A DNA stretch of 64,000 nt from Cycloclasticus sp. (lineage in GTDB: Bacteria > Pseudomonadota > Gammaproteobacteria > Methylococcales > Cycloclasticaceae): positions 1 to 64,000 of the forward strand of contig NVUJ01000005.1 in assembly GCA_002733135.1 (NCBI GenBank), given 5' to 3'. How positions within the stretch are numbered: position 1 is the first letter of the stretch; each line of letters begins with the position of its first letter. The position numbers and the translations under genes are program-made. The notes under the pieces are model-generated. The model saw nothing but the letters and a program-made list of their open reading frames with translations. It did not search any database and was not told the DNA's origin. Below, in pieces: positions 1,072 through 4,062 of this stretch.

Positions 1072-1144
1072 GGTGACACTTTCTCCGTTAGGTTTTAGTG
1101 TCCATTATTTTGGGGGAGGTCTCGCGTCGCCTTTGACCCACTTG

Positions 1145-1426
1145 TTATGCAGCTATCTCATGGTCAACATCCCAACCAGGAAAGACTAAAACTGCTGGGT
1201 GGCATTTTAATGCCCTAGCTAGCACTTTGGCTCTTTCTACACCTAGCTTAATTTTATCGTGCTCAATAGCTGAAAGTGTTGATTGAGGGATGCCGGTTAA
1301 TGAAGATAGCTCGTTTTGACTTAATTCTTGTAACTCACGGATAATTTTTACAGATTCACCAATGGAAACATCTGTTCTTTTTTGGGCTTCTTTATAGTCT
1401 TTCATATTATTTCCTCCGGTAATCAT
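1145..1426 (-). CDS. HTH (XRE/HigA-type) antitoxin
   Basis: SQNELSSLTGIPQSTLSAIEHDKIKLGVERAKVLARAL is an XRE-type HTH; overlaps the upstream toxin gene by 20 bp. Confidence 0.85.
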   Translation of the reverse strand: MITGGNNMKDYKEAQKRTDVSIGESVKIIRELQELSQNELSSLTGIPQSTLSAIEHDKIKLGVERAKVLARALKCHPAVLVFPGWDVDHEIAA

Positions 1427-1688
1427 GTGCAGTTACGTTGATTATTTTTACAAACAATTGGTCGTTATCAATTTTATAAATAATGCGGTATTGAATATTG
1501 AGGCGAGAGGAACGACAACCTTTCCACTCACCGCGCAACGCCTCATCTTTAAACCCCAGGATTTGTTTTAGTCCTGCAGGGCCTGATATTGCTACGATAT
1601 CCTTCCATTTCTCGTATCTTTTAAGGATATCGATAGGTAGTGATTTCAGTCCTTTTAGCGCATCTTTGTGCTCATATATTTTCCACAT
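1407..1688 (-). CDS. RelE/HigB-family type II toxin
   Basis: 93 aa with ...LKSLPIDILKRYEKW...LRGEWKGCRSSRLNIQYRIIYKIDNDQLFVKIINVTAHDYRRK, a RelE superfamily signature; toxin precedes antitoxin. Confidence 0.85.
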   Translation of the reverse strand: MWKIYEHKDALKGLKSLPIDILKRYEKWKDIVAISGPAGLKQILGFKDEALRGEWKGCRSSRLNIQYRIIYKIDNDQLFVKIINVTAHDYRRK

Positions 1689-1690
1689 AC

Positions 1691-1722
1691 TAAATATAGT
1701 ATATATATCATATATGGTATGT
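1691..1722. promoter_or_regulatory. Candidate autoregulatory operator/promoter of the TA operon
   Basis: Imperfect AT-rich palindrome TATAGTATATATATCATATATGGTAT immediately upstream of the toxin start. Confidence 0.45.
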
Positions 1723-1734
1723 CAAGTTCTTAAT

Positions 1735-1824
1735 GCATAACGTTTGAATTAACCGGCCGTTTTATACAGAGTAGAGCGAAGCGGAACGGCGTATAAAACG
1801 GTCGGGTTGAATGACTTGTTATAC
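1735..1824 (-). repeat. Integron attC-like recombination site (attC-1)
   Basis: Minus strand GTATAACAAG...AACCCGACCGTTTTATAC-loop-GTATAAAACGGCCGGTT...CGTTATGC; long imperfect inverted repeat with bulge, core-like ends. Confidence 0.75.
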
Positions 1825-1871
1825 ATTTTTTAACGCAAGGGCTGATTCATACGATTAATTTGTTCTTGTTG

Positions 1872-2267
1872 TTATCTTGCTGCGGCAGCTTCTCTGGTTT
1901 TGAGTTCATCTTCTGTGATGGGGTCAACAGGAAGAGCAAGCGGTACTTTAAAACTAATATGGTTTGTTGATGAGCTTTTATTACTTTTACTGCCTCCGCC
2001 ACCAGCAGAGAAAACACTAGCAACTTTTAGTTTTGCATGTCCATCTTTACCTGACTCTTCTTCAACTGTTACAGCGACATCAAAACTGATTAAAAAGACG
2101 TTGCGACCGTGGGTCATACTTGCAAAGTGTGAATCATCTGTGGTTTTTGTGCTCGCACGCGTTGCGGGATTAACATAGCCACCACTGTCTCTTACTGACG
2201 CTAGAGAATCCTGAACACCTTCAGATATTTGTGTGAGCGTTTCTTTAACAAATTCTTTTAGTTCCAT
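1872..2267 (-). CDS. Cassette-encoded hypothetical protein, trypco2-like fold proposed
   Basis: 131 aa; lies between two attC-like sites; ...VFLISFDVAVTVEEESGKDGHAKLKVASVFSAGGGGSKSNKSSSTNHISFKVPLALP resembles trypsin-co-occurring-domain proteins. Confidence 0.6.
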   Translation of the reverse strand: MELKEFVKETLTQISEGVQDSLASVRDSGGYVNPATRASTKTTDDSHFASMTHGRNVFLISFDVAVTVEEESGKDGHAKLKVASVFSAGGGGSKSNKSSSTNHISFKVPLALPVDPITEDELKTREAAAAR

Positions 2268-2283
2268 GTTTTATTCCTATGGT

Positions 2284-2387
2284 GCATAACGGCCGAGTTG
2301 AGCGGCATGTAAAATATATGGGTTCTGATTGAGCGCAGCGAATGAGTGGCCGATATATTTTACATGCCTCTCCAACGACTTGTTCTC
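2284..2387 (-). repeat. Integron attC-like recombination site (attC-2)
   Basis: Minus strand GAGAACAAGTCGTTGGAGAGGCATGTAAAATATATCGG...CCCATATATTTTACATGCCGCTCAACTCGGCCGTTATGC; same ends and architecture as attC-1. Confidence 0.75.
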
Positions 2388-2452
2388 ACTTGGGTACCGC
2401 CGAACTTGATTCACCAAGCAAAAGTTCTTTAAACTATTGCCGCTCAACTCGG

Positions 2453-2569
2453 ACGTTCGCGGGCGGCGCGTATTAATATGTACTCTGGTTCGATTTACCA
2501 CTGGGCTCCCTTTATGTCTACTCCAATCAGTTTACCGTATAGGTAGCGCCGGTTGCGAACTTGTTATTA
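2453..2569 (-). repeat. Degenerate attC-like site (attC-3)
   Basis: Minus strand TAATAACAAGTTCGCAACCGGCGC...GCGCCGCCCGCGAACGTCC; imperfect inverted repeat with AACAAG-type left end but poor right core. Confidence 0.45.
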
Positions 2570-2709
2570 AGGGGAATGTATTTTCCCTGTAATTCCTATA
2601 CAAAGAAGGACTATAATTCTCTGTAATACGTTAATCAAGCACAAAACAGGAACAATTTCAGTCTTCTCAATTTAAGCTTAACACGGGTGTTAATTAACTC
2701 GACAGCCTT

Positions 2710-4062
2710 TTACTTACCAATACAAAACGAAGAAAAGATCTCTCCCAGTAAATCATCTGGGGTCATTTTTCCTGTTATTTCTGATAAGGAATTTTGAGCT
2801 AAGCGAAGGTCTTCTGCAAACAGTTCGCCGGCTTGGTAGGTGAGCAGTTGTTCTATGCCTGCATTTAACAGTTCATTAGCCCTTGCTAGGGCATCTAAAT
2901 GGCGGCGGCGCGCTAGGAATATGTTTTTTTCTTCGGGGTTAAAACCCACTAGAGTTTTTAGGTGTTGGGTTAACAGGTTTAAGCCGCTTCCTTGTTTGGC
3001 GGACAGCTTTATAACGGTTTGCTCACCCTCTACATAAACCGTTGGTTGTTGTTCTGTTAAATCTATTTTGTTACAAACAATGGTGACGGGTATGTCTGCT
3101 GGAATATCTTTTAATAACAATAAGTGCTCATTTGTCGCTGATTCTTGATCATCCACTATCAACAGCACTTGATCTGCGGTTGCTATGGCTTGTTTTGCTC
3201 GTTTTACGCCTTCTTTCTCTATCGCGTTATCGGTTTCACGCAAGCCTGCCGTATCAATAATATGCACGGGCATACCGTCTATTTGTATTTGTTCTTTTAG
3301 TACATCGCGTGTTGTACCTGCTATGGCGGTAACAATGGCCGTATCTCGTTGAGCGAGGGCGTTTAATAGGCTGGATTTACCAGCATTCGGTTTACCTGCT
3401 AATACAACGGTCATACCATCGCGTAATAAGCTGCCTTGTTTGGCGGTATCTGTTAATTTTTTAAAGGCTTGTTGTAACTCTTTAATCAATTTTTTTAATT
3501 CTTCTCCGCCTAAAAAATCAATGTCTTCATCGCTAAAATCTATCGCTGACTCTACGTACAAGCGCAAATGGGTTAACTGCTTTTGTAAGTCGTTTATATG
3601 TTCTGAAAAAGCGCCCTGTAGTGACCGTTGCGCGGATACTGCGGCGGCTTCTGTGCCGGCATCAATAATATCTGCCACGGCTTCTGCTTGAGCTAAATCT
3701 AGTTTGTTATTTAAGAATGCCCGTTGGGTAAATTCACCCGGTTCTGCTATGCGTGCGCCGAGTGACAACACCCGTTTTAACAACATATCTAAAACCACTG
3801 GGCCACCGTGACCTTGTAGCTCTAGCGTGTCTTCACCGGTGTAGGAGGCTGGGGATTGAAAATAGAGGGCAAGGCCGCTATCAATGGTGCTGTTATCGTG
3901 TTCTTTAAACGATTTAAGGAAGGCTTGGCGCGGGGCAAGTTGACTACCTAAAAGCTGTTCACAAATGTGCTTAGTATCGGGGCCACTAATACGAATAATT
4001 CCAATGCCACCACGACCGCTCGCTGTTGCGATAGCGGCTATCGTGTCATTGGTATTGCTCAT
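2710..4062 (-). CDS. mnmE: tRNA uridine-5-carboxymethylaminomethyl(34) synthesis GTPase MnmE (TrmE/ThdF)
   Basis: 450 aa; GKPNAGKSSLLN, DTAGLRET, NKID, C-terminal FCIGK. Confidence 0.98.
   Translation of the reverse strand: MSNTNDTIAAIATASGRGGIGIIRISGPDTKHICEQLLGSQLAPRQAFLKSFKEHDNSTIDSGLALYFQSPASYTGEDTLELQGHGGPVVLDMLLKRVLSLGARIAEPGEFTQRAFLNNKLDLAQAEAVADIIDAGTEAAAVSAQRSLQGAFSEHINDLQKQLTHLRLYVESAIDFSDEDIDFLGGEELKKLIKELQQAFKKLTDTAKQGSLLRDGMTVVLAGKPNAGKSSLLNALAQRDTAIVTAIAGTTRDVLKEQIQIDGMPVHIIDTAGLRETDNAIEKEGVKRAKQAIATADQVLLIVDDQESATNEHLLLLKDIPADIPVTIVCNKIDLTEQQPTVYVEGEQTVIKLSAKQGSGLNLLTQHLKTLVGFNPEEKNIFLARRRHLDALARANELLNAGIEQLLTYQAGELFAEDLRLAQNSLSEITGKMTPDDLLGEIFSSFCIGK

Follow-up and report, generated by a model that had tools for sequence, protein, structure and literature searches.

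The cassette array next to mnmE, near the replication origin of this marine Cycloclasticus, sits on what is, judged by its sequence, a complete attI without an integrase gene (an orphan attI), and it is probably one of several scattered platforms of this kind served in trans by an integrase encoded elsewhere. In the usual description an integron has a single integrase, a single attI and a single array, in which the platform promoter drives expression of mainly the first cassettes; cassettes enter as circles, whose folded attC is inserted at attI by IntI. The window, i.e. the whole 64-kb stretch of DNA that was analyzed, corresponds to bases 1-64000 of contig C16 (118,772 bp) in an 83%-complete assembly of 1.76 Mb and 24 contigs (the source genome, G000). 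Its placement in Cycloclasticus came from comparison of MnmE, which is 82-83% identical in Cycloclasticus records.

All features of the array lie on the minus strand. Reading away from mnmE (2710-4062, taken from the open reading frame list), the stop codon is followed by 150 bp up to a G|TT, with attI inside, then by cassettes 1, 2 and 3 and finally by an IS3-family insertion sequence (1-1122; NF033516, 243 bits, cut-off 160) that runs off the contig end. Cassette 1 (2290-2559) is 270 bp long, poor in open reading frames and ends in a 104-nt attC (2284-2387) whose last six bases, TTATGC, belong to cassette 2. Cassette 2 (1741-2289), bounded by the G|TT of both attC sites, contains an open reading frame of 131 aa (1872-2267) that is weakly Trypco2-like (Pfam PF19631, E 0.0073, below cut-off) and had no NCBIfam match. 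Cassette 3 (1123-1740) encodes, according to sequence and profile matches, a toxin-antitoxin pair: a RelE/StbE-family toxin-like frame (1407-1688; TIGR02385, 36.8 bits, cut-off 27.9) and an HTH_3 antitoxin-like frame (1145-1426; PF01381, E 2e-12), with the 3' end of the cassette cut by the insertion sequence. A strong promoter-like pair, TTGACA-16-TATACT (1698-1725, 11/12 matches), lies directly upstream of the toxin gene. No Rfam model matched the 64-kb window.

Using the sequence alone, the initial annotation had proposed two attC sites, a half-site and a degenerate site, all in one orientation and separating small minus-strand reading frames. An initial home-made scan for attC was too stringent to detect the sites of the window, and a looser version gave 14 matches in six shuffled windows; because it found the window sites among chance matches, covariance models were chosen instead. 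Model R1 includes the window's own attC sites, and for this reason a second model, R2, was built only from attC of other Cycloclasticus genomes, its member sites having themselves been found and aligned with R1. The two attC sites are real: those at 1735-1823 (59.2 bits, E 8.6e-11) and 2284-2387 (19.5 bits, E 0.057), both on the minus strand, were the sole R2 matches in 64 kb up to E=10, and both fold as expected. The weak score of the 104-nt site is offset by the presence of six more near-identical copies elsewhere in the genome; the cassette that follows differs from copy to copy, and the sequences diverge at CCG|TT. The half-site, previously placed at 1141-1150, is genuine and longer than supposed: it spans 1150-1123 on the minus strand (GCATAACAAGTGGGTCAAAGGCGACGCG), agrees with the beginning of an intact attC from a relative (L198) and represents the 5' half of the cassette 3 attC, interrupted by IS3. 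The picture of minus-strand attC sites separating minus-strand cassettes was thus borne out for two attC sites and the IS3-cut third. The supposed degenerate site at 2453-2569 matched neither R1 nor R2 and was dropped as an attC after alignment of attI and of the repeated cassette. The inverted repeat there covers the core of attI and part of cassette 1, and marks the junction of attI with the first cassette.

Cassette 1 recurs at 95-98% identity in contigs C22 and C3 and, shortened, in C23 (L024 15089, 15955 and 13365; the start of L030; L025 12171 and 17411). Within it are perfect inverted ends, AACGGCCGAGTTGAGCGGC ... GCCGCTCAACTCGGCCGTT, one of them coinciding with the 3' arm of the cassette's attC; it resembles a small cassette of mobile or promoter type. 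The initial annotation had named the genome-wide presence of the same repeats as a non-integron palindromic element as grounds for abandoning an integron. Similar sites do occur elsewhere in the genome, but they are mostly attC in cassette arrays. In total, the source genome holds at least 26 attC (E<0.01), located in arrays at the ends of C22, C23 and C16 and in the window, and also as single sites.

The block at the head of the array (2560-2652, minus, about 95 bp) is 80-82% identical to the attI found directly upstream of intI in three other genomes (G005, G017 and G014). It comprises two direct repeats, ATTACAGAGAATTATAGTCC (2627-2608) and ATTACAGGGAAAATACATTCCC (2593-2572), and the core CTTAATAACAAG (2571-2560), with the G|TT crossover between 2560 and 2559. 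The intI-linked site of those three genomes has two repeats of the form ATTACAGGG and ends in TTCCCCTTAATAAC(A/T)AG|TT, which we designate type A. Another form, type B, ends in CCGCTTATTAACACTG|TT and adjoins intI in G004 and G015 and, slightly changed, in G001. Types A and B are versions of one site, since their profiles match each other in register (nhmmer). An alignment of 46 attI copies extends over about 100 bp and breaks off at G|TT. A promoter-like pair, TTGATT-17-TATAGT (2638-2610, 9/12 matches), is present in the attI of the window and in several type A copies of this alignment; matches of this quality were no more numerous than chance in the promoter scan, and the suggestion that attI carries a cassette promoter is speculative. 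The array has an attI at its head, as a complete integron does, with only mnmE upstream of it and no adjacent intI.

Sites of this type are dispersed across the genus. Two merged blastn searches yielded 74 attI-like sites in 17 of 18 Cycloclasticus genomes, and the closed chromosomes of G008 and G014 carry eight and six attI, respectively, with one intI each. Among the 46 copies fetched with their surroundings, six have intI beside them and two more retain an intI 5' remnant. An attC was found within 4 kb downstream in 37/46, and all 111 attC matches in these loci lie on the same strand as their attI; the fetched stretches were longer downstream than upstream, and thus the position, though not the strand, is partly a matter of design. 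Genome-wide in closed G008, 12 of the 14 attC fall at most 3.1 kb downstream of an attI and on its strand, an area of about 0.5% of both strands. Outside the genus, the type B attI query found no match in 283 genomes (of 301 sampled from the order), and a plasmid collection contained no match to attI.

Most copies lie downstream of host genes, and several recur at a corresponding position in more than one species: at mnmE, at an HI0933-type flavoprotein gene and at two genes that we take, from their C-terminal sequences, to be metY-like and tauD-like. Closeness to the replication origin, which had been considered unexpected, turns out to be a property of just one of many places used by such platforms. 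In G004, G005, G008, G011, G014 and G017, a cognate integrase is encoded in the same genome as such platforms. At two loci, intI is present in one species and an orphan attI in another, so intI loss accounts for some orphan attI. A host gene that we presume to be ettA-like is followed in G012 by an intI with a stop codon (G012:C1:92229-93176) and in G007 by an orphan attI (L228). The attI at L030 196-328 in the source genome and L215 1103-1230 in G004 carry an insertion of about 50 bp, alike in both, that separates the repeats, as though this form of the site had been copied or inherited. At four places, attC matches occur with no attI found nearby (G014:C1:916250-917382, G000:C22:7282-7371, G000:C21:59646-59733 and G008:C1:1660106-1660165); these are possibly true CALINs or attG insertions.

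The mnmE locus offers a direct comparison of what different species hold at one attI. Homology between species stops exactly at G|TT, and the 300 bp that follow are 37-47% identical between different contents and 96% identical between G006 and G010. The source genome has the repeated 270-bp cassette at this position, G006 and G010 have a BrnT/BrnA pair behind a partly damaged attI, and G012 has no cassette. In G012 the next host gene, presumably transglutaminase-like, ends at the junction with the empty attI. The same gene follows mnmE in G009, where attI is absent. Between mnmE and this gene lie 44 bp in G009 versus approximately 144 bp in G012; the difference matches the attI block in size and hints that attI may reach new loci as a unit of about 100 bp. 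Related cassettes are also found at different attI. The C23 array of the source genome contains a cassette that aligns with the BrnT/BrnA cassette of G006 from G|TT to the end of attC (85%), the 270-bp cassette takes first position in the source genome both at the type A attI of mnmE and at the type B attI of C3, and further cassettes are common to intI-linked and orphan attI of different species. Insertion is thus precise at G|TT and accompanied by turnover, the pattern expected of an attI platform used in trans. At the level of genome comparison, these data show that cassettes have entered orphan attI, at the canonical crossover, since the divergence of the species. A transposase frame that we take to be of the REP-associated type also recurs, at 97% identity, in the array of an intI-linked attI in G014 and in that of an orphan attI in G001 (L198 and L230).

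In agreement with the initial annotation, no intI was found in the window (no TIGR02249 match in 64 kb). A search of the flanking sequence and the rest of the genome gave a single match over the TIGR02249 cut-off, comprising the last 182 residues of an integrase at the end of contig C19 (L022 18523-19071); its N-terminal part and its own attI lie beyond the contig end. This integrase is divergent: its identity to every integrase compared is 50-59%, and it is not close to the type A-linked or the type B-linked ones. Four orphan attI were identified in the source genome, one of type A on C16 and three of type B on C23, C14 and C3, the last of which probably joins C22, with which it has an identical 40-bp end in common. 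No intI cognate to these sites was seen in the 83%-complete source assembly. Either the assembly or the cell itself may lack it, and because it was not found, present activity in the source genome is uncertain.

The simplest reading of cassettes at orphan attI would be IntI acting in trans. An integrase from elsewhere would recombine circular cassettes, via attC, into the G|TT of an orphan attI, and cassettes would turn over while attI stays in place. At least some orphan attI are the remains of an intI-attI unit after loss of intI. We infer that IntI acts on the orphan sites, and that it may do so today in the source strain as well. Extending this to one integrase that serves a network of up to eight attI chromosome-wide, with attI spreading as a unit of about 100 bp, is tentative, and we lean toward doubting it.

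The best-surviving alternative, which we nevertheless regard as unlikely, is that a complete integron once stood at mnmE and lost intI, leaving attI and array as a frozen remnant comparable to that at ilvD in many Xanthomonas strains. Interruption of the array by IS3, the intI 5' remnants at two orphan attI, the two loci that differ in intI between species and the unseen cognate intI of the source genome are all consistent with it, and cassette entry may predate the loss of intI at a locus, which would count against a platform used in trans. However, no intI remnant is detectable upstream of the mnmE attI or of most other copies, one and the same attI has different contents in different species and is empty at mnmE in G012, and one cassette comes first at two different orphan attI of a single genome. 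It is very improbable that the assembly broke a single chromosomal integron into pieces at IS3 and at repeated attC copies: some contig ends do fall within arrays and repeats, but the leading end is resolved, with attI within 150 bp of the mnmE stop codon and no intI between them, closed genomes show the same dispersed organization and three other species have the orthologous mnmE attI. Equally improbable, and already contradicted by the attI homology, is off-target insertion by IntI at a non-classical attG next to mnmE, which would explain insertion at G|TT and is a way in which CALINs can arise, but attG is described as neither attI nor attC, whereas the target here is homologous to intI-linked attI over about 95 bp, includes both direct repeats and occurs in G012 without cassettes. 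Service of scattered orphan attI in trans remains the probable explanation.

Several of these elements have counterparts in known systems. A CALIN is a cluster of attC sites without an integron-integrase (IntegronFinder 2.0, PMC9024848), and the initial annotation had read the mnmE array as CALIN-like. The usual definition does apply, with two close attC and half of a third in one orientation and no intI on the mnmE side, the far side of the array lying beyond the contig end. That reading misses the full attI at the head, as well as what the rest of the genome contains, namely the intI, about 24 more attC and the other orphan attI; unlike a CALIN so defined, the array is one of several platforms whose contents at attI differ between species. 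The nearest case is a CALIN in the Shewanella prophage M16-3 that, as at mnmE, starts at its own attI, similar to that of the complete integron (PMC9892861), but this is one extra attI in one prophage, compared with up to eight per chromosome throughout Cycloclasticus, several at orthologous places. In Xanthomonas, intI of the chromosomal integron at ilvD is often broken or deleted and the array kept, giving CALINs at conserved chromosomal places; the accessible portion of that report mentions no dispersed attI copies (PMC12444791), whereas the Cycloclasticus platforms carry attI. The same paper cites attG, where insertion away from intI occurs at G|TT in sites that are neither attI nor attC (Loot et al. 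2024, cited in PMC12444791); cassettes at mnmE are likewise away from intI at G|TT, but in an attI homologue with its repeats. Finally, delta-attI cassettes of class 1 and 2 integrons contain attI sequence away from intI that is still recombined by IntI1 (PMC12901181). There, pieces of attI replace attC inside cassettes, while in Cycloclasticus whole attI are fixed between chromosomal genes. CALINs, insertion at attG, the loss of intI in Xanthomonas, delta-attI cassettes and a second attI in one prophage were already known. The searchable literature, which includes few subscription papers or preprints, contained no genus with many full attI per chromosome and nothing on point on Cycloclasticus integrons.

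If true, the presence of many attI per chromosome would change how cassettes are captured and expressed, with many first positions available at once, and CALINs could then arise by a route other than decay or off-target insertion. Annotation that relies on intI and attC would miss capture sites. Orthologous attI that are empty, filled or differently filled in related species form a natural archive of cassette turnover, readable directly from genomes.
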